Numbered from the stretch's first letter, positions 11,788 to 63,514 are shown. The stretch: DNA of 64,000 bases from a bacterium (GCA_030615605.1 JAUWYY010000009.1:1-64000); one strand, 5' to 3'. Numbers and translations are program-made. The notes: a model not told the origin generated them from the sequence alone.

Positions 11788-12471
11788 ATGCGTACTGCGA
11801 CAGTTGTTGGATTGCTTGTGTTGCTCGTCTTGGCAGTTAGCGCGGCGGGGGCGGAGCAACCTGAGGAGTGTGTTCTCTACGGCAGCTACGAGGACATACC
11901 CTTGGTAGGCTGGTGGCCGGCGGATGCTAGCGGGATGATCGGAGTAGGTGGGGTCGAGTTCTTCGTGATACCGGGCAACGGTGGCGGGCTCACTCTACCG
12001 GTTCGTGCGGAGATTGTTGATTCTCGCATCACCGAGATTCTCTCTGAGGGCATCAGCGGCCCGGTCCGCGTCGGTGACGTCCGCGGCCAGCCCACTATCT
12101 ATGTCGGGCTATATCGGTTGATTACGGTTTATGACATAGATGCAGTAAATGCTGGAGCCATCTCAGCTCAGGTCTTAGCTGAGAAGTGGGCCCAATCGGT
12201 GGCCGCAGCCCTGCCCCAGGTCCTGCCCAGTCCCTATGCTGCTGCTCAGCCAGTGAGCAGGGTGTCGCGGTTGCACTTCCAGCCCAGCGGTGGTGGCTTC
12301 AGCGTTCACCCCGTGCGCAGGATGTCGACGCGGTTGCACTTCCAGCCCAGCGGTGGTGGCTTCAGTCTTCACCCCGTGCGCAGGATGTCGACGCGGTTGC
12401 CCTTCCAGCCCAGCGGTGGTGGCTTCAGTCTTCACCCCGTGCGCAGGGTGTCGCGCGGCGTGGAGAAATAG
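11788..12471 (+). CDS. Secreted protein with a three-fold 21-residue C-terminal repeat
   Basis: 227 residues from ATG 11788 (AAGGAGGG upstream), with a signal peptide ending near AGA. The middle segment (VLAEKWAQSVAAALPQVLPSPY) resembles a segment in the larger secreted protein at 28189 (LAQQWAENLRRVFASPYL), suggesting a shared domain. The C terminus is three near-identical 21-residue units containing LHFQPSGGGFSVHPVRR. The units are encoded by exact 63-bp DNA repeats, so they arose by recent duplication. No function is recognised. Confidence 0.7.
   Translation: MRTATVVGLLVLLVLAVSAAGAEQPEECVLYGSYEDIPLVGWWPADASGMIGVGGVEFFVIPGNGGGLTLPVRAEIVDSRITEILSEGISGPVRVGDVRGQPTIYVGLYRLITVYDIDAVNAGAISAQVLAEKWAQSVAAALPQVLPSPYAAAQPVSRVSRLHFQPSGGGFSVHPVRRMSTRLHFQPSGGGFSLHPVRRMSTRLPFQPSGGGFSLHPVRRVSRGVEK
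12268..12456 (+). repeat. Three tandem 63-bp repeats in frame
   Basis: Units at 12268-12330, 12331-12393 and 12394-12456 differ by only a few bases (for example AGCGTT/AGTCTT and CACTTC/CCCTTC). As 63 is a multiple of three, gain or loss of a unit keeps the frame. It is the kind of repeat that changes copy number by slippage. Confidence 0.9.
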
Positions 12472-13494: not shown

Positions 13495-13530
13495 ACGCGG
13501 ATTATTGATACTGCTGTACTACTATATTAA

Positions 13531-13633
13531 AAGTTTTTGCCGGCTTGTCCGCCGTAGCTGCACTTGTGCAGCGTAGGCGGGAAAGGTGCGGGAAACCGGC
13601 TTTTTTCAAAAAGCGGGTTTTCCGCAAAATCCG
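13531..13633 (+). repeat. Palindromic host element, copy 1 (left site filled)
   Basis: It starts AAGTTTTTGCCGG and ends at CCGCAAAATCCG. The right part forms a hairpin with stem GCGGAAAACC/GGTTTTCCGC and inner stem GCTTTTT/AAAAAGC. A 38-bp insert with a TCCGCCGTAGC...GCGTAGGCGG module fills the left internal site (13548-13580). It lies between thiL and lipA; the lipA ATG begins 3 nt after the right edge. Confidence 0.9.
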
Positions 13634-13636
13634 TTT

Positions 13637-14545
13637 ATGACTGATCATCTTATGTCGTCAACAAGCGAGCCGATGGTAGAAGATGCCGGACCTCTGCCGC
13701 CGTGGCTGCGAGTTAAGATAAAGAAGGCTGCGCTTACCGAACAGACCGGCCGGCGGCTGGGCTGTCATGGCGTGGCTACTGTCTGCGAGCGGGCTCATTG
13801 TCCCAACATCGGCGAGTGCTACAGTCGTGGTACCGCCACTTTTCTGATAATGGGCACGGTCTGCACGCGTAACTGCCGCTTTTGTGCGATTGACAGCGGC
13901 CGGCCCGAGCCGCTGGACCCCGACGAGCCCCAGCGCGTCGCCGAGGCCGTCGCTGACCTGGGTCTGGATTTCGTCGTGGTCACCTCGGTGACCCGTGATG
14001 ACCTCCCTGACGGCGGCGCCGGTCACTTTGCAGCGACCATCCGCGCAATTCGCGGCCGTCTGCCGGAAGCTGGTATCGAGGTGCTAACCCCCGACTTCAG
14101 CGGCGACACATCTGCACTCAGGCAGGTGCTGGAGGCAAAGCCGACTGTCTTCAATCACAACGTTGAGACCGTGCCTCGCCTCCAGCCTGAAATCCGCCCG
14201 CAGGCTGACTATGATCGCTCGTTGGGTATGCTGGCTGCCGCTCACCAGATCGCTCCCCCCATTCCGACCAAGTCGGGGCTTATCGTTGGGATGGGGGAGA
14301 CCGCCGACGAGACTCGCCAGACGATGACGGACCTGGCTGGTGCCGGCGTCAGCATATTGACCATCGGCCAGTATCTGCAGCCCACCCGCCGCCACCGCCC
14401 GGTCAGCCGCTACGTTCCTCCCGATGAGTTCGCCCTCTACGAGCAATGGGGTCGCCAGACGGGCTTGGCCTACGTGCTATCCGGCCCCTTCGTGCGCAGC
14501 AGTTACCATGCGGCGGAGGCCGCGCAGGCAGTTTTGGCGAAATAG
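13637..14545 (+). CDS. lipA: Lipoyl synthase
   Basis: A radical SAM enzyme that inserts two sulfurs into octanoyl groups to make lipoate. Both cluster motifs are present: CERAHCPNIGEC for the auxiliary 4Fe-4S cluster and CTRNCRFC for the radical SAM cluster. The C-terminal RSSYHA motif supplies the serine ligand. From ATG 13637 it has 302 residues. Later ATGs (13652, 13673) are also possible, and no start has a strong ribosome binding site. The upstream frame runs into the palindromic host element, so the element's right edge (TTTATGA) seems to have become the start region. Confidence 0.95.
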   Translation: MTDHLMSSTSEPMVEDAGPLPPWLRVKIKKAALTEQTGRRLGCHGVATVCERAHCPNIGECYSRGTATFLIMGTVCTRNCRFCAIDSGRPEPLDPDEPQRVAEAVADLGLDFVVVTSVTRDDLPDGGAGHFAATIRAIRGRLPEAGIEVLTPDFSGDTSALRQVLEAKPTVFNHNVETVPRLQPEIRPQADYDRSLGMLAAAHQIAPPIPTKSGLIVGMGETADETRQTMTDLAGAGVSILTIGQYLQPTRRHRPVSRYVPPDEFALYEQWGRQTGLAYVLSGPFVRSSYHAAEAAQAVLAK

Positions 14546-27176: not shown

Positions 27177-27270
27177 TGCCAATAGCTGCTGCCAGTGACC
27201 CACCCGATGTGGATTAATCCGGCTCTATGAGGGATAACAGTATCTTATCTGTCGTATTATTGTACTGTTA

Positions 27271-27335
27271 AAGTTTTTGCCGGAAAGGCGCGGAAAACCG
27301 GCTTTTTTCAAAAAGCGGGTTTTCCGCAAAATCCG
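27271..27335 (+). repeat. Palindromic host element, copy 2 (both sites empty)
   Basis: The 65-bp form, AAGTTTTTGCCGG directly joined to AAAGGCGCGG and then the hairpin GCGGAAAACC...GGTTTTCCGC and CAAAATCCG. Neither internal site is filled. It lies between lpxD and the kinase gene that starts 25 nt beyond the right edge. Confidence 0.9.
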
Positions 27336-27359
27336 TATATGAATCTTGTAGGCTAAGCA

Positions 27360-30958: not shown

Positions 30959-31133
30959 CTAAAATTTACCCCCGGCGGGGGGTTATTAAACGACAGCCGG
31001 CATCATTCACGAAGGTAGAAGGGATGGGCCTTCAGAAGATGTGAAGATGGCCGTAGAAAGCTATTCAAGGTAGTTCACAGTCTGTCATGAAGAATAACCG
31101 GGTGTAACTATTAACTGGGTTACTCTACTTTTG

Positions 31134-31236
31134 AAGTTTTTGCCGGCCTGTCCGCCGTAGCTGCACTTGTGCAGCGTAGGCGGGAAAGGTGCGGAAAACC
31201 GGCTTTTTTCAAAAAGCGGGTTTTCCGCAAAATCCG
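31134..31236 (+). repeat. Palindromic host element, copy 3 (left site filled)
   Basis: Same as copy 1: AAGTTTTTGCCGG, insert with TCCGCCGTAGCTGC...GCAGCGTAGGCGG (31151-31183), the GCGGAAAACC hairpin, and CAAAATCCG. It lies between the divergent FecR and CHASE2 genes, ending 35 nt before the latter. The rest of the 30959-31271 gap holds a GC-rich inverted repeat near 30970-30986 (CCCCCGGCGGGGGG) in the FecR leader. Confidence 0.9.
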
Positions 31237-31271
31237 TTGATGACTAGTCTAGGACGGAGGAGACCGCGATA

Positions 31272-47856: not shown

Positions 47857-48753
47857 CTATTGCAGATAAGACTTCACATACTCCGCCACTGCCTTCTGCC
47901 ATGGGCGCAGCGGAGCGTGGCCCAGCGCTGCCCACCGCCGGTTTTCCAGCACCGAGAACGCCGGCCGCCGGGTGGGGCTGTCCCAGTCGGCGCCGGAAAT
48001 CTCAGTGATTGGTACACCGCTCAAGCCGGCGACGTCCAGTGCCGCTCGCGCCAGCTCCGCCCGCGAGCAGTAGCCGCTGTTGGTTAGATGAATAATGCCG
48101 CTGATTGGCTCCGCCACCAGTTCCCACAGTGCCCCGGCCATGTCCCGAGTGTAGGTCGGCGAGCCAATCTCGTCAACTACCCCCCCCACCTCGCCCCCGT
48201 GGCGAGCGTGGTCAATGATGGCCGCGACAAAATTGCGTCCTCCTGGCCCGAACATCCACTGCGTCCGCACGATCAGACAGTCGGCGGCAATCTGCTGCGC
48301 TGCTCGTTCACCCGCCAGCTTCGAGCGTCCGTAGGCGTTTATGGGATTGGGCGCATCCTCTTCGCTGTACGGGCTGCCCCTGGTCCCGTCGAAGACGTAG
48401 TCAGTGCTGATATAGATCAGCTTGGCGCCGCGCTCGGCACAAAAGACGGCCACCTTTTCGGTCGCCAGCGCATTATGTCGCTGCGCCAGTTCCGGCTCGC
48501 TGGTGGCACCGTCCACATCGGTATACCCGGCACAGTGAATTACTACATCAGGCTGGTCTCGTCCGCCGTAGCTGCGTTCGTGCAGCGAAGGAGGATATGG
48601 CCCCAGGGCACCGTCAATACCCTCGTCGGTACTCAGATCACCGTCAGCAATATCCACGCCAACCGTGCGTACTGCCGCCGGCGCCAGCTTCATCAGCGCC
48701 GACCCCAGCATCCCTGCTGCGCCGGTGATGACCGCTGTCTGTTGACCGCTCAT
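47857..48753 (-). CDS. rfbD: dTDP-4-dehydrorhamnose reductase with an in-frame palindromic insert
   Basis: It makes dTDP-L-rhamnose for surface polysaccharides. 298 residues from ATG 48753. The NAD(P) motif GAAGMLGSAL, STDYVFDGTRGSPYSEEDAPNP, and the YGRSK active site are intact. Between GALGP and PDVVIHCAGYTDVDGA the protein carries an extra stretch YPPSLHERSYGGRDQ, encoded by a copy of the dispersed TCCGCCGTAGC palindromic module (48562-48595). Its start overlaps the stop of the preceding gene (48750). Other rfb genes are not nearby. Confidence 0.9.
   Translation of the reverse strand: MSGQQTAVITGAAGMLGSALMKLAPAAVRTVGVDIADGDLSTDEGIDGALGPYPPSLHERSYGGRDQPDVVIHCAGYTDVDGATSEPELAQRHNALATEKVAVFCAERGAKLIYISTDYVFDGTRGSPYSEEDAPNPINAYGRSKLAGERAAQQIAADCLIVRTQWMFGPGGRNFVAAIIDHARHGGEVGGVVDEIGSPTYTRDMAGALWELVAEPISGIIHLTNSGYCSRAELARAALDVAGLSGVPITEISGADWDSPTRRPAFSVLENRRWAALGHAPLRPWQKAVAEYVKSYLQ
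48562..48595 (-). repeat. Palindromic module inside rfbD
   Basis: The plus strand reads TCCGCCGTAGCTGC, GTTCGT, GCAGCGAAGGAGGA: the same module as in the host-element copies 1, 3 and 6, with arms GCTGC/GCAGC. It is read through by the rfbD frame as about 11 residues (in YPPSLHERSYGGRD). The length difference is a multiple of three or was compensated, so the reading frame is preserved. Confidence 0.85.
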
Positions 48754-49376
48754 TGTGTTGTCCCGGATCTTGCGTCCCACCAACTGCGAAACTGGCCCAC
48801 ATCCCGGATACCATGCTCCAGCACAGCCTCGTAGATCTGGATCGACAGCATGGTGCGGCGATACTCTTGCTGGTAGCACAGAGTTTCCTTAATGGCCAGG
48901 ATGGCCGCGCGGGCTTCCTCGGTCATCAGGGATATCCATCTCTCCTGCCTGTGCGCGGTGCGTTTGGTCTTCTCAGGGGACACCGTGTGCAGGTCGAGCT
49001 TCCAGACGCTCTTGTCCTGCGGCTCTATGGAGTCCGTTCTAGTTGGGTCGGTAACCAGGAGACCCCAGTAGAAGCTCTGCAACCCGCCCGCTAGCCAATA
49101 CCTATGGAAATTCGTGCAGTCCAGGCGGACACACCATCCCGCCAGGGCCAGTCGCGTGCCTACCTGCCAGTGTCGCTCCCAGTCGGGCACTTCTTCGGCG
49201 CGGTCAAAGTCGAGGTCGCGCCATGTCATAGTGTGCATTGCATAGCTGCCAACAGGCCCATAGCTGGCCTCATTCAGTATGTCACCGATGCCCGAGTCGG
49301 CGAGCATGGAGTCTGCTTCAGACCGCAGTGCTTCATCCAGTGAGAAAAGCCGTTCGGCCTCAGAGTTCGTGGTCAC
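48750..49376 (-). CDS. Hypothetical protein, nucleotidyltransferase-like
   Basis: 208 residues. The segment YGPVGSYAMHTMTWRDLDF resembles the GS-x-x-L-G-L-x-T-W-R-D-x-D signature of small nucleotidyltransferase-fold proteins; the second half is helical. I cannot name the substrate. Its stop overlaps the ATG of rfbD (ATGA), so the two genes are coupled, and it lies about 50 nt after the Gfo/Idh gene. The assignment to the fold is by motif only. Confidence 0.5.
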   Translation of the reverse strand: MTTNSEAERLFSLDEALRSEADSMLADSGIGDILNEASYGPVGSYAMHTMTWRDLDFDRAEEVPDWERHWQVGTRLALAGWCVRLDCTNFHRYWLAGGLQSFYWGLLVTDPTRTDSIEPQDKSVWKLDLHTVSPEKTKRTAHRQERWISLMTEEARAAILAIKETLCYQQEYRRTMLSIQIYEAVLEHGIRDVGQFRSWWDARSGTTQ

Positions 49377-50524: not shown

Positions 50525-50581
50525 TCCGCCGTAGCTTCCTTGTCCGCCATAGCCTTGGCGAAGGCGGATGGCGAAGGCGGA
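50525..50581. repeat. Self-nested palindromic module
   Basis: An outer module TCCGCCGTAGCTTCCT ... GGCGAAGGCGGA contains a complete inner module TCCGCCATAGCCTTGGCGAAGGCGGA-type at 50543-50568. The inner copy sits in the loop of the outer, showing insertion of one module into another. It lies upstream of the Gfo/Idh gene in the 50498-50801 gap. Confidence 0.85.
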
Positions 50582-50801
50582 TCCTACCGAGGCAATGGTT
50601 TCCTCGTCAGCTTGATACTTACCTCCCTGGCCATCGTGGTTATTCAAGTTTGCCGCCCCCGCGGCCAATATCACTAACGACAAACGCATCGATGCACAAG
50701 CCATGCTGGCGAGGGAGCCAAATACAGTGAATCCAACAATCGGTTGGCCGGACGACTCTAACGGGTCACACTCCCGGTGTAGCGACGGGCTTGGTGGCGT
50801 C

Positions 50802-51392
50802 ATGACTGGTGCGCCGCCGTCGCGGGTATGGAGCCTGCAACTGCTCAATGCCACGGTGGAGAACAAAGACGGTTACACCGTCGGCCACTGCCGGCGGGTC
50901 CGTCAGTATGCCCGCATTTTGGGCGAGGTGCTGGGACTGGACGACGAGCAGCTCTGCACCTTGCAGATTGCCGCCGACTTTCATGACATCGGCAAGGTCG
51001 GCATCATCAGCCCTATTCTCAACAAGCTCGGCCCGCTGGACGACTTCGAATGGCGGGTTATCTATATGCACCCGCTGCTGGGCCGCGAGCTGTGGGAGGG
51101 GGCTATTCCCCGCTTGACCAACGTTGCCAGGATCATCTACCAGCACCACGAGCGCTGGGACGGGGATGGTTATCCCGACGGGCTGGCGGGTGAAGAAATC
51201 TGCGTGGAAGCCCGGATTATGGCGGTGGTAGACGCCTACGACGCGATGTGCAGCGACCGTCCCTACCGCCCGGCCCTGGCCGAACCAGTAATCTTCGAGG
51301 AGCTGCACACCGGCGCCGGGGGCCAGTTCGACCCGGAGGCGGCCGGTCTCTTCATTGACATCATCCAGGATAGGAAGGTCAAAGCGGCCTAG
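50802..51392 (+). CDS. HD-GYP domain protein, cyclic-di-GMP phosphodiesterase
   Basis: From ATG 50802 it has 196 residues; an ATG at 50703 in the same frame would add 33 residues of low-complexity sequence. The HD-GYP domain is complete with HDIGKVGI, HHERWDGDGYPDGLAGEEI and VVDAYDAM. Such domains hydrolyse cyclic-di-GMP. There is no receiver or sensor domain, so the regulation is by gene expression or by partners. It is followed 61 nt later by a GGDEF protein, so opposing enzymes of c-di-GMP turnover lie side by side. Confidence 0.88.
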   Translation: MTGAPPSRVWSLQLLNATVENKDGYTVGHCRRVRQYARILGEVLGLDDEQLCTLQIAADFHDIGKVGIISPILNKLGPLDDFEWRVIYMHPLLGRELWEGAIPRLTNVARIIYQHHERWDGDGYPDGLAGEEICVEARIMAVVDAYDAMCSDRPYRPALAEPVIFEELHTGAGGQFDPEAAGLFIDIIQDRKVKAA

Positions 51393-51453
51393 GCCACCGG
51401 CACGGTGTGCTTTGACAGCATACGCGCCTGTTCTAACCGCCCGGAGGGAGCAA

Positions 51454-54270
51454 GTGCGAAGAATGCCTGAGTTGATCTCTGTTAAGAATAATGGTAATCG
51501 CCAACGGACTGTTTTTGTCTTTGCATCTTTGGCGATTGCGCTTGTGGCTGCTGTATTGTGTCTCGGTAGTTTCAAAGTGAGGGAATTCGAGCAAACGGTT
51601 ATTTCCGATACCCAGAAGCACCTATTGACGATCGCCAGGACACAAGCCGAGCACATTGAAGAGCTCATCTGTGAAACACAATGTGACCTGGAAGCTTTGG
51701 CCGCCAATCCCATTATCAAGAACAGAATCAGAAACAATGTCAGGGGAAGTGAGATTGCTGAGGGCGACTATCGTCCGTTTCAGCATATGTTCCTTGAAGA
51801 GCGCCATATTGCTGCTGCGCTTTACAGAATCGATTCAACAGGCATAGTACAAGCAAGAGTACCCCCGGCGGAAGGGCGCGAGGGCCGCGATTATTCAAAC
51901 AAGCCCGGGGTGAAGTTCGTCCTGGAGAACCATACGAAACGTGGGGAGCATTCAGAAGAATCCTATGAGCATGTCAGTGAACTGCTCACAACAGCTTCCG
52001 GGGCATATGCCATCGCTGTTTGCGTACCTGTTTTTGAAAAAGAGGAGTTTATCGGTGTACTGCGTGCCTTGATCTATGCAGATCAACTTGGCGATATCAT
52101 CGGCGGTATCGAAGCAGGTGAGAAAGGCTATGGTTGGCTAATAGATGATGATGGGCAAGTATTGTCTCATCCTGATGCCGAGCAAATTGGCGCAGATTTC
52201 ATGACAATCAGGCGGGAAAAGTTGCCCGGCGCTGATTGGTCGGAGCTGGAAGATGTTACTGCAAGAATGCGTGACGGCGAAGAAGGGGTGGCCTTATATC
52301 ATTCCGCATGGTGGGCAGAGCCTAATCCCAGAATGGTGAAGAAAATAGTTGCGTTTGCCCCGATTGAAATCGGCAATGAACAGTGGTCCATCGCTGTGAC
52401 CATGGGTTACGATGAAATTGCCGGACCGATCACCAGGTACGCCAGGAATACCCTCATTCTGGGGGGATTATTGATCCTAATCTTCCTGGCGGGCGGCACA
52501 GCGCTCTATCGAGTTCAGAAGAAAAAGGATGAGCTTGAGATCATCGCTGCATCTGCTACGGAACTGGAAAGTGCCAATCGCAAATTGCAGACCGAAATCA
52601 CCGAACGCAAGCAGGCCGAAGAGGCCCTGCGCGAAAGCGAGGGCAAGTACAGGACACTGGTTGAGAATCTTCCCCAAAAGATATTCTTCAAGGATAGGAA
52701 TCTAGTCTATGTATCCTGTAATGAACAGTACGCTCGGGACTTGGGCCTTGCACCAGATGAAATCGCCGGACACACAGACTATGACTTCTACTCCAGGGAA
52801 TTGGCAGAGAAGTACCGAGCAGACGACGCAAGGATTATGCAGTCCGAGGAGACAGAAGACATGGAGGAGGACTACATCCAGGATGACCAAGAACTAATTG
52901 TCCACACGGTCAAGACGCCCGTCAGAGACGAAGGCGGCAAGGTTGTCGGCATACTGGGCATTTTCTGGGACATCACCGAACGCAAGCGGGCCGATGAGGC
53001 GCAGCAGGAGAGCGAAGAAAGATTCAGAACCATATTTGATAAGGCTAGGGACGGCATGCTCCTCGCCGATCCGGAAACGAAGAGATTCTACACTGGCAAT
53101 GAAATGATATGCCGTATGCTGGGCTATACTCTCGAAGAGCTCAAGAATCTGGGAGTGATGGATATCCATCGCCAGGAAGACCTCCCTTATGCTATGGGGC
53201 AGTTTGAAAAGCTATCTAGCCGAGAGATTGAGGTGGCCAAAGACATTCCGGTGAAGAGAAAGGACGGCACTGTTTTCTACGCAGATATCAGTGCCGGTCG
53301 GGTGACGTTAGGTGATGGAACATATATGTTGGGCATCTTCAGGGACATCACCGAGCGCAAGCAGGCCGAAGAAGCGCTGCAGGAGGCTTATCAGCGCAAC
53401 GAGACCGTTCTGCAGACCTCTATGGACGGCTTTATGATAATGCAGCCGGATGGCAGTATTATCGAGTGCAATGAGGCTTTCTGTGAGGTGGCGGGATATT
53501 CACAGGACGAACTGCTGGATATGAATATCGGTGCCCTGGCCGCACAGATGACCGCTGAAGATCTGGGCGAGACTATGCAGCAGGTGATGGACGCCGGCTC
53601 TCGCCGCTTTGAGACTGCTATGCGGCGCAAGGACGGCACGATAGTTGACTTGGAAGTTGCCACGACCTCCGTCGAACTGTCCGAAGACAGCTTCATTGTT
53701 AGCTTTACCCGCGACATCACCGAAACCAAGCGGCTGTGGGACGAGCTTAACCACCAACTGGTGCGCGACGCGCTCACCGGCGTCTACAACCGCCGCTACT
53801 TCAACGAAACTATCATCCAGGAGATCGGACGCGCCGACCGATACGGCCACCACGTCAGCTTCATAATGGGCGATATTGACGGCCTGAAGGCGATCAATGA
53901 TGGCTACGGGCATCTGGTTGGCGACCAGATTCTGCAGGGCGTGGCCGAGGTCCTCCAGAAGTCGGTCCGCGCGGCTGATGTTATCATCCGCTACGGCGGC
54001 GACGAGTTCCTGGTGGTAATGCCCGAGACCCGCACTGAGCAGGCCCACGCCGCTCTCGTCCGCTTCCAGGATGGCTTCAGCGAGGAGCTGGCCCAACGGG
54101 TCCAGGATGGGGCCCTATCCCCCGATCTGCCGGCGGATCTCGGCTTCAGTATGGGCGTGGCCTGCTACGAGCCGGACACCGATGTCGCCGTCGAGGAGGT
54201 CCTCGCCCAGGCCGACGCGGCCATGTATCAGGTCAAGCAGGCCAAACGCGCCAAGCGCGCCACCGCCTGA
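51454..54270 (+). CDS. Membrane sensor diguanylate cyclase (Cache-PAS3-GGDEF)
   Basis: 938 residues from GTG 51454, with GGAGGG 5 nt upstream. A first membrane helix (VFASLAIALVAAVLCLG), an extracytoplasmic Cache-type sensor of about 270 residues (TRTQAEHIEELICETQCDLEAL-like), a second helix near 340 (LILGGLLILIFLAGG), three PAS domains joined by ITERK(Q/R)A linkers, and a C-terminal GGDEF domain (GGDEF at 848-852). The inhibitory I-site RAAD sits at 838-841. The part up to about 53390 is visibly richer in A and T than the last part, which suggests a fusion of an acquired sensor with a native cyclase. Confidence 0.9.
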   Translation: MRRMPELISVKNNGNRQRTVFVFASLAIALVAAVLCLGSFKVREFEQTVISDTQKHLLTIARTQAEHIEELICETQCDLEALAANPIIKNRIRNNVRGSEIAEGDYRPFQHMFLEERHIAAALYRIDSTGIVQARVPPAEGREGRDYSNKPGVKFVLENHTKRGEHSEESYEHVSELLTTASGAYAIAVCVPVFEKEEFIGVLRALIYADQLGDIIGGIEAGEKGYGWLIDDDGQVLSHPDAEQIGADFMTIRREKLPGADWSELEDVTARMRDGEEGVALYHSAWWAEPNPRMVKKIVAFAPIEIGNEQWSIAVTMGYDEIAGPITRYARNTLILGGLLILIFLAGGTALYRVQKKKDELEIIAASATELESANRKLQTEITERKQAEEALRESEGKYRTLVENLPQKIFFKDRNLVYVSCNEQYARDLGLAPDEIAGHTDYDFYSRELAEKYRADDARIMQSEETEDMEEDYIQDDQELIVHTVKTPVRDEGGKVVGILGIFWDITERKRADEAQQESEERFRTIFDKARDGMLLADPETKRFYTGNEMICRMLGYTLEELKNLGVMDIHRQEDLPYAMGQFEKLSSREIEVAKDIPVKRKDGTVFYADISAGRVTLGDGTYMLGIFRDITERKQAEEALQEAYQRNETVLQTSMDGFMIMQPDGSIIECNEAFCEVAGYSQDELLDMNIGALAAQMTAEDLGETMQQVMDAGSRRFETAMRRKDGTIVDLEVATTSVELSEDSFIVSFTRDITETKRLWDELNHQLVRDALTGVYNRRYFNETIIQEIGRADRYGHHVSFIMGDIDGLKAINDGYGHLVGDQILQGVAEVLQKSVRAADVIIRYGGDEFLVVMPETRTEQAHAALVRFQDGFSEELAQRVQDGALSPDLPADLGFSMGVACYEPDTDVAVEEVLAQADAAMYQVKQAKRAKRATA

Positions 54271-54296
54271 CCCACCCCTCGTTACCCTTCCTCACC

Positions 54297-54350
54297 GGTA
54301 GAAGCGGCATTTCAGCCGCCGTAGCTTTAGCGAAGGCGGATACTGCCGCG
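54297..54350. repeat. Palindromic module nested in another type
   Basis: The module GGTAGAAGCGGCATTTC...CTGCCGCG (compare the intact GTAGGAGCGGCATTCCTGCCGCGA at 63439-63462) is split by a TCCGCC-type module (GCCGCCGTAGCTTTAGCGAAGGCGGA, 54315-54340). The insertion lies in the loop of the outer palindrome. The remaining part of the 54271-54654 gap holds the host element copy 4 and no gene. Confidence 0.8.
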
Positions 54351-54555
54351 TCCCCGCGTATTACCTCCATCCTCTGGGAGGTTACCGGCGCACCGCTGGC
54401 GAACTGTCCTAACAGCAGCCGTCTGTTGTTGGTGTGCCGTTGTGCCGTGGCTGTGCTGCCTCTGTGCTGTCGTCCCGGTTGGAAGAGGCGTTTTAACGCA
54501 GATTATTCAATGCCCGTGAGGGATAGCGGTATACTACGGTACTGGTCAACTTCTA

Positions 54556-54620
54556 AAGTTTTTGCCGGAAAGGTGCGGAAAACCGGCTTTTTTCAAAAAG
54601 CGGGTTTTCCGCAAAATCCG
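54556..54620 (+). repeat. Palindromic host element, copy 4 (both sites empty)
   Basis: 65 bp, nearly identical to copy 2: AAGTTTTTGCCGG-AAAGGTGCGG, then the hairpin GCGGAAAACC/GGTTTTCCGC, and CAAAATCCG. The folE2 ATG lies 35 nt beyond the right edge. Confidence 0.9.
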
Positions 54621-54654
54621 TTTATGAATTTTGCAGCCCAGAGCTGGTGTCAAA

Positions 54655-56681: not shown

Positions 56682-56696
56682 GGGCGCTGCTCATTG

Positions 56697-56722
56697 TCCG
56701 CCATAGCCTTGGCGACGGCGGA
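56697..56722. repeat. TCCGCC-type palindromic module, solitary
   Basis: TCCGCCATAGCCTTGGCG, then ACGGCGGA: the short form of the module with the central GCCTTGGC, one base changed in the right arm. It stands alone between two membrane-protein genes. Confidence 0.8.
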
Positions 56723-58548: not shown

Positions 58549-58596
58549 GGATAGAAGCGGGAGGCGGGACGGGTGTCGGCTGCCTTACCAATTTAA

Positions 58597-58715
58597 AAGT
58601 TTTTGCCGGCCTGCCCGCCGTAGCCTTGGCGAAGGCGGGAAAGGTGCGGCTCGTGGTGAGCCTGGGCGAATCAGCGAACCGGCTTTTTTTCAAAAAGCGG
58701 GTTTCCCATAAGCCG
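58597..58715 (+). repeat. Palindromic host element, copy 5 (both sites filled)
   Basis: The left site holds a short TCCGCC-type module (58614-58639, with GCCTTGGC centre). The right site, between GTGCGG and AACCGGC, holds a different module (CTCGTGGTGAGCCTGGGCGA and on, 58650-58676). The hairpin and right edge are degenerate (GGGTTTCCCATAAGCCG). It follows the AbiU2-like gene. No gene lies in the rest of the 58444-58836 gap. Confidence 0.85.
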
Positions 58716-62182: not shown

Positions 62183-62361
62183 GATGAGTACCTCCTGCTG
62201 CCGCTTGCGATGCCGGGGCAGCATCAGCTAGTGCGGATTATTCATAAACCGAAATACAAACATATTCTATTGTCCCAAATCCAGTTCTCGGGGGCGTTTC
62301 AATCCAGGACATTCGCCCTTCTGCGGGGCAGAGAATATATTGTTCTACTGTTCAAGTGTAA

Positions 62362-62489
62362 AAGTTTTTGCCGGCCTGTCCGCCGTAGCTGCACTTGTGC
62401 AGCGTAGGCGGAAAATGTGTAGCCTGTGGTGAGCTTGGTCGAACCAGCAAACCGGCTTTTTTCAAAAAGCGGGTTTCCCGCAAAATCCG
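62362..62489 (+). repeat. Palindromic host element, copy 6 (both sites filled)
   Basis: The left site holds TCCGCCGTAGCTGC...GCAGCGTAGGCGGA (62379-62412) as in copies 1 and 3. The right site holds a second type (CTGTGGTGAGCTTGGTCGAA and on, 62421-62448), related to the insert in copy 5. Upstream at 62226-62242 GGATTATTCATAAACC is an imperfect reverse complement of the right edge AAAATCCGTTTATGAAT of other copies, a possible outer end. No gene lies in the 62183-62506 gap. Confidence 0.85.
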
Positions 62490-63438: not shown

Positions 63439-63514
63439 GTAGGAGCGGCATTCCTGCCGCGATTGCCCTTGCCCTGTGCCCTTCACCTGTGGGAGGGGCA
63501 CCCTTGCCCCGACC
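63439..63514. repeat. Two palindromic modules upstream of the membrane-protein gene
   Basis: GTAGGAGCGGCATTCC, TGCCGCGA (63439-63462) is the intact form of the module interrupted at 54297-54350. The 29-bp module at 63486-63514 is the exact reverse complement of 58520-58548. Confidence 0.8.

Follow-up and report, generated by a model that had tools for sequence, protein, structure and literature searches.

The window, a 64,000-nt stretch of bacterial DNA on contig C23 of a 2.89 Mb assembly (59 contigs, 92.7% complete), contains small palindromic modules that are nested inside one another. This arrangement raises the question of whether one of the modules is a mobile element that enters the others, and what determines its point of entry. 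The sequence-only reading had placed one TCCGCC-type module in the loop of another at 50525–50581 (nest 1), and had described the same type of module as splitting a different one, intact at 63439, at 54297–54350 (nest 2). Reading of the sequence confirms both nests, and nest 2 is additionally established by empty sites in two genomes, G005 and G004. A third nest had been missed (Table 1). The nesting is real, and the observation is stronger than it was first stated to be.

Table 1 Modules, outer palindromes, and repeats in the window
Feature	Position	Strand	Basis or remark
Nest 1, same-family outer module split in apical loop	50525–50581 (outer halves 50525–50538 and about 50570–50581)	+	Outer matches family consensus once 30–31 nt are removed
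Nest 1, inner 30-nt module, CTTG+TCCGCCATAGCCTTGGCGAAGGCGGA	50539–50568	+	Exact family consensus
Nest 2, GTAG-type REP (GTAGAAGCGGCAT...TACTGCCGCG) split in loop	54298–54351	+	G005 and G004 orthologs intact, GTAGGAGCGGCATTCCTGCCGCGAC
Nest 2, inserted 30-nt module, TTCA+GCCGCCGTAGCTTTAGCGAAGGCGGA	54311–54340	+	Alignment with empty sites; no target duplication
Nest 3, GTAG-type REP (GTAGGGGCGCTGCT, TGCCGCGCCC) split in loop	56678–56732	+	G005 and G006 orthologs intact, GTAGGGGCGCTGCTTGCCGCGCCC
Nest 3, inserted 31-nt module, CATTG+TCCGCCATAGCCTTGGCGACGGCGGA	56692–56722	+	Empty-site alignment
Intact GTAG-type REP, GTAGGAGCGGCATTCCTGCCGCGA (nest 2 reference)	63439–63462	+	Folds as perfect 6-bp hairpin, loop TTCC
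Second intact REP, GTGGGAGGGGCACCCTTGCCCCGAC	63489–63514	+	Module splits another own-genome copy (L189)
Module CCTG+CCCGCCGTAGCCTTGGCGAAGGCGGG in ~110-nt genus-specific repeat	58610–58639	+	Between GCCGG and AAAGG
Long-arm variant in ~110-nt repeat	13544–13581	+	Identical point (GCCGG^AAAGG)
Long-arm variant in another ~110-nt repeat copy	31147–31184	+	
Long-arm variant in another ~110-nt repeat copy	62375–62412	+	
~110-nt repeat	13513–13640, 27224–27344, 31116–31245, 54509–54629, 58579–58706, 62344–62473		
Long-arm variant in rmlD-like gene (47857–48879, minus)	48558–48596	+	13 extra in-frame codons (YPPSLHERSYGGR)

Nest 2 is composed of GTAGAAGCGGCAT, TTCAGCCGCCGTAGCTTTAGCGAAGGCGGA, and TACTGCCGCG, in this order. 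In G005 and G004, which belong to the same genus, the conserved sequence upstream of the nest continues into CACCGGTAGGAGCGGCATTCCTGCCGCGAC. The 30 nt present in the window split the REP at GCGGCAT^T (the caret marks the insertion point), and the REP also differs by two substitutions. Since GCGGCATTTCAGCCGC is palindromic in its own right, 54297 could also be interpreted as two palindromes placed side by side; this was dismissed on account of the two orthologs, which show the REP intact and free of the insert. A member of this REP family is also split at the identical point at a non-homologous site of G004 (L226). The site of nest 3 reads GAGAAATCACCGTAGGGGCGCTGCTTGCCGCGCCC in G005 and G006, and the window holds 31 extra nucleotides at GCTGCT^TGCCGC; the own genome has two further instances of the nest 3 arrangement (L184). 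Target duplication is absent at both aligned empty sites. Nest 1 reads TCCGCCGTAGCTTC, followed by CTTG-TCCGCCATAGCCTTGGCGAAGGCGGA-T and GGCGAAGGCGGA. No orthologous outer module for it was found in G005 and G001, so this nest is recognized solely by the consensus of its restored outer module.

The inserted module has precise boundaries and a length of about 30 nt; it is composed of a YYYR tag and a 26-nt hairpin with the layout TCCGCC-RTA-GC-YTYR-GC-GAA-GGCGGA. Its consensus, derived from 256 copies with 175 distinct 30-mers, is YYYR + Y + CCGCC + R T A + GC + YTYR + GC + GAA + GGCGG + R. The 5′ tag is mostly CTTG, followed in frequency by CCTG, TTTA, TTCG, and CTCG. Covariation of the pairs 5-30 (T-A/C-G), 8-27 (G-C, C-G, T-A, A-T), and 16-19 (C-G/T-A) exceeds that of all shuffles, and pair 16-19 closes the loop, leaving two bases (TT or TC). 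The stem is imperfect: R.A and A.G mismatches are conserved at positions 11.24 and 13.22, where none of the 175 distinct units has a Watson-Crick pair. Single-strand DNA folding predicts a hairpin of −7.1 kcal/mol. At one empty site that is well defined, the unit measures 31 nt instead of 30. Long-arm variants, which have the same feet as the module, are located at 13544, 31147, 48558, and 62375 of the window; the one at 13544 consists of 38 nt (CTTG-TCCGCC-GTA-GCTGCA-CTTG-TGCAGC-GTA-GGCGGG). Copies were collected by pattern scans, and variants far from the consensus are therefore under-represented.

Sixteen copies with up to three mismatches are present in the own genome, against none for the reversed pattern, and at least 120 genome stretches match the module in a contig scan, against approximately 0.06 exact matches estimated by chance in 257 Gb. 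These numbers exclude chance. The carriers span at least ten phyla, as taken from the record titles of their stretches; the flanks of the module are unrelated, and its core is nearly invariant. Carriers among the matches listed include Patescibacteria groups, Verrucomicrobia including Kiritimatiellae and Lentisphaeria, Omnitrophota-type MAGs, Bacteroidetes, Acidobacteria, Planctomycetota, Marinimicrobia, Alphaproteobacteria, Deltaproteobacteria, Acidimicrobiia, and Zipacnadia. At least one match was found in 26 of the 61 relatives, with up to 104 copies (two relatives hold 68 and 104), and some of the single matches at two mismatches in distant relatives may be due to chance. Compared with random positions, module copies less often fall in long open frames, and some are genic. 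As a 30-nt tagged hairpin with many dispersed, mostly intergenic copies, the module has the features of REPs, which measure 20–50 nt and carry a conserved tetranucleotide. Searches of plasmids and phages returned hits that were chance-level or partial, and Rfam at gathering score identified three tRNAs only in the window and no match to the module.

The position of the insertions was analyzed by deleting 30 nt per copy, joining the flanks, and looking for a restored hairpin, with flanks shifted within the same locus as the background. Stems of at least 6 centered on the junction were restored at 38 of 254 sites (5.4 expected), and stems of at least 8 at 16 of 254 (0.57 expected). When hairpins of at least 7 bp were accepted irrespective of where the junction fell in them, the junction lay in the loop 21 times and in the arms three times among the 254 sites, with 1.7 and 3.7 expected. 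Several hits are copies of one composite in G039, and similar contexts were therefore collapsed. In the resulting 180 distinct contexts, with stems of at least 6, loops were hit 17 times and arms four times, against expectations of 3.65 and 6.45 (P about 2e-7). Loop junctions are approximately fivefold above the same-locus expectation, and arm junctions are at background level. The comparison with chance that the sequence-only reading had proposed thus supports hairpin loops of other small palindromes as favored targets of the module. The target preference inferred by that reading agrees with the excess in loops, the background level in arms, and two empty sites; it is however only partial, since approximately 85–90% of module copies are outside any detectable outer hairpin. 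Extruded cruciforms, one of the two target forms suggested by that reading, would fit this preference as well as single-stranded DNA would.

At L226 (GCGGCATTCCTGCCGC) and L189 (GGGGCACCCTTGCCCC), taking out the 30 nt leaves exactly an intact REP, and at L050 in Bradyrhizobium it leaves a REP of the CGTC type. Outer REPs of the GTAG type were identified in the own genome at L184, L189, and L190, and less clearly at L185, and elsewhere at L226 in G004 and at L019, L068, L094, and L110 in other lineages. Composite nests are present in several copies in G039, where the module occupies the loop of a GTAG REP and is also found in a GGGGCCGGGC palindrome (L193, L197, L198, L199, and L203; L192 and L194), as if the composite itself had spread.

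The enzyme could in principle recognize a short sequence, cutting near CT[TG]^[TA], which REP loops happen to hold, and not a structure. Nested targets have T at −2 and T or A at +1, identical points of the same REP families are hit repeatedly, and TnpA-REP enzymes cut at CT dinucleotides (PMC8266576). Non-nested targets however weakly prefer C at −4, G at −1, and A or T at +1. Since the two preferences differ, albeit in small numbers, one motif is unlikely to explain both target sets. The outer loops also vary (CAT^TCC, GCT^TGCC, CTTG^A, and TTT^A), and we regard recognition of sequence as unlikely, although it is the most credible competitor of recognition of the loop.

Scanning for outer modules of the same family, at any offset of the joined flanks, identified two insertion positions and none of the scatter within outer modules that would speak against a preferred point. 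The commonest, CCGCCRT^AGC, lies 7 nt inside the outer module, in its 5′ internal loop and beside the conserved mismatches; it was used in ten loci (L204, L205, L223, L228, L242, L061, L067, L128, L150, and L013). The apical loop was entered in four (L186, L200, L013, and 50543 of the window). Matches at L012, L087, and L218 look spurious. Insertion at the center of the outer palindrome, as originally claimed for both nests, applies at 54297 and roughly at 50525, but does not describe the commonest same-family point.

Survivorship would offer another explanation of the loop excess, if insertion were random in intergenic DNA and copies in loops were retained more often than those in arms. Selection does shape which copies survive, because modules avoid long open frames in comparison with random positions. 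An excess of approximately fivefold over the same-locus expectation with arms at background, an interrupted REP arm without obvious cost, and the use of two positions only in self-insertions make this explanation improbable.

Locus L013 resembles a matryoshka, in which repeated left halves of the module are followed by one core and repeated right halves, with several insertions nested in one another. Such tandem runs of halves could in principle reflect slippage, and nests in general might stem from template switching or repeat recombination at replication, with no transposition involved. This is very improbable given the exact inserts of 30–31 nt with orthologous empty sites, and the occurrence of the module with unrelated flanks in many phyla.

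On balance, we favor the interpretation that the TCCGCC module, about 30 nt long, is a non-autonomous mobile element akin to REPs, which inserts precisely and without duplication, preferably into hairpin loops. The evidence for it includes the empty sites at 54311–54340 (G005 and G004), 56692–56722 (G005 and G006), and 48558 (G005). Counted against it are the lack of a module-flanked Y1 gene among those examined, the 31-nt unit, the un-nested state of most copies, and the weak orientation bias. The orientation of modules relative to GC skew is 138:112 overall (p 0.11) and 22:9 at |skew|>0.1 (p 0.03); the bias is weak, and the G-rich strand is not favored. Insertion on the lagging strand, which the sequence-only reading had considered possible, gains no solid support from this test of the GC skew around the copies.

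The module resembles the GTAG and CGTC superfamilies of REPs in consisting of 20–40 nt that form one hairpin with an unpaired 5′ tetranucleotide tag, and in being dispersed, mainly intergenic, with some copies inside genes (Di Nocera et al. 2013, PMC3733652). It belongs to neither, because its tag differs. The tags CTTG, CCTG, TTTA, TTCG, and CTCG are not GTAG, and GTA lies within the stem and is not terminal; the module also lacks the CGTC (TGTC, CCTC) tag combined with an 8–9 bp stem starting with A-T pairs. Furthermore, GTAG and CGTC families vary between species (PMC3733652), whereas the module core is nearly invariant over at least ten phyla. The term "CTTG" is absent from PMC3733652, and no description of the module family was found in the literature searched by sequence and on palindromic repeats. 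Rickettsia palindromic elements (RPE) are similarly short palindromes, some of which lie in frame in genes, as does the copy at 48558, but differ from the module in sequence, host range, and tag; RPE-4 and RPE-6 have been assigned to the CGTC superfamily (PMC3733652).

Hairpin centers have precedents as targets. The insertion sequences ISPsy8 and ISRm22 target REP hairpins at the palindromy axis (Tobes and Pareja 2006, PMC1525189), and some REP families sit inside palindromes, namely A. variabilis GTAG-15, T. roseum GTAG-23, and H. neapolitanus CGTC-1 (PMC3733652). Like ISPsy8 and ISRm22, the module enters REPs at their symmetry axis. Both of these are complete insertion sequences, however, and ISPsy8 has a 3-bp direct repeat, whereas the module is a 30-nt hairpin without target duplication.

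The module shares an imperfect stem and conserved mismatches after a tetranucleotide tag with TnpA-REP/RAYT REPtrons of group 2, the E. coli type, whose substrates are single-strand hairpins (PMC8266576). We liken it to these substrates because of precise insertion, the absence of duplication, the 5′ tag, and the conserved stem irregularity; the likeness is one of mode of action. It differs from REPtrons in its tag and in having no linked transposase gene among those examined. TnpA-REP enzymes cleave single strands at CT, and the tag contributes to the choice of the site (PMC8266576). Of the traits of IS200/IS605-like single-strand transposition, the lack of a target duplication was observed at the empty sites, and strand specificity is weakly indicated. 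The module probably moves as single-stranded DNA. Both donor and target would act as folded single strands, which an HUH (Y1) transposase of the TnpA-REP/RAYT or IS200/IS605 kind would cut and join in trans. Favored targets are the loops of GTAG and CGTC REPs, the apical loop of the module, and its RT^A internal loop. A trans-acting Y1 enzyme is our best guess for the module, held with moderate confidence.

A PF01797 search of the own genome (92.7% complete) yielded no Y1 transposase, and none of the hits examined from 60 relatives and from 29 further carrier genomes has the module as a flanking repeat. RAYTs in the searched relatives and carrier genomes carry other palindromes. A recurrent neighbor gene, sought near the module at 153 loci, yielded common families only. 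In an Acidobacteria assembly (L307:1830–1890), a head-to-head module pair is located in the loop of a REP copy (GCAGACCTGAAGGTCTGC); this copy adjoins a RAYT-like gene that is read in two frames and flanked by the REP. At L225 and L227, the REP GTGGGAGGGGCACCCTTGCCCCGA precedes RAYT-like genes of the genus and is read in frame as LWEGHPCPD.

The movement of REPs is an unsolved problem, and empty sites with a defined 30-nt insert describe its product cleanly. If true, the loop preference would constitute genomic evidence for a folded target as well as a folded donor in transposition. A near-identical module in unrelated phyla also poses the questions of which enzyme recognizes it and by which route it crosses phyla. 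More tentatively, and with greater doubt than the mobile-element interpretation, we speculate that the YYYR/CTTG-tagged module may represent a third great REP superfamily, present in most bacterial phyla with an almost constant core and without a resident transposase, and spreading largely as a loop-inserting hyperparasite of palindromes that can repeatedly nest in itself.

The long-arm variant in the rmlD-like gene indicates that module inserts can give proteins extra in-frame peptides: the G005 ortholog lacks the 13 residues and reads ALGPSEPDVV, whereas the window encodes ALGP-(13 residues)-DQPDVV. The genus-specific repeat of about 110 nt forms a long hairpin (GCGGAAAACCGGCTTTTTTCAAAAAGCGGGTTTTCCGC), with dozens of copies across the own genome and relatives; in some copies, the module sits at one fixed point, GCCGG^AAAGG. 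The window also contains a tandem 63-nt repeat at 12246–12455, with three copies of 92–100% identity to the reference copy, and three tRNA genes at 482–840 on the minus strand.
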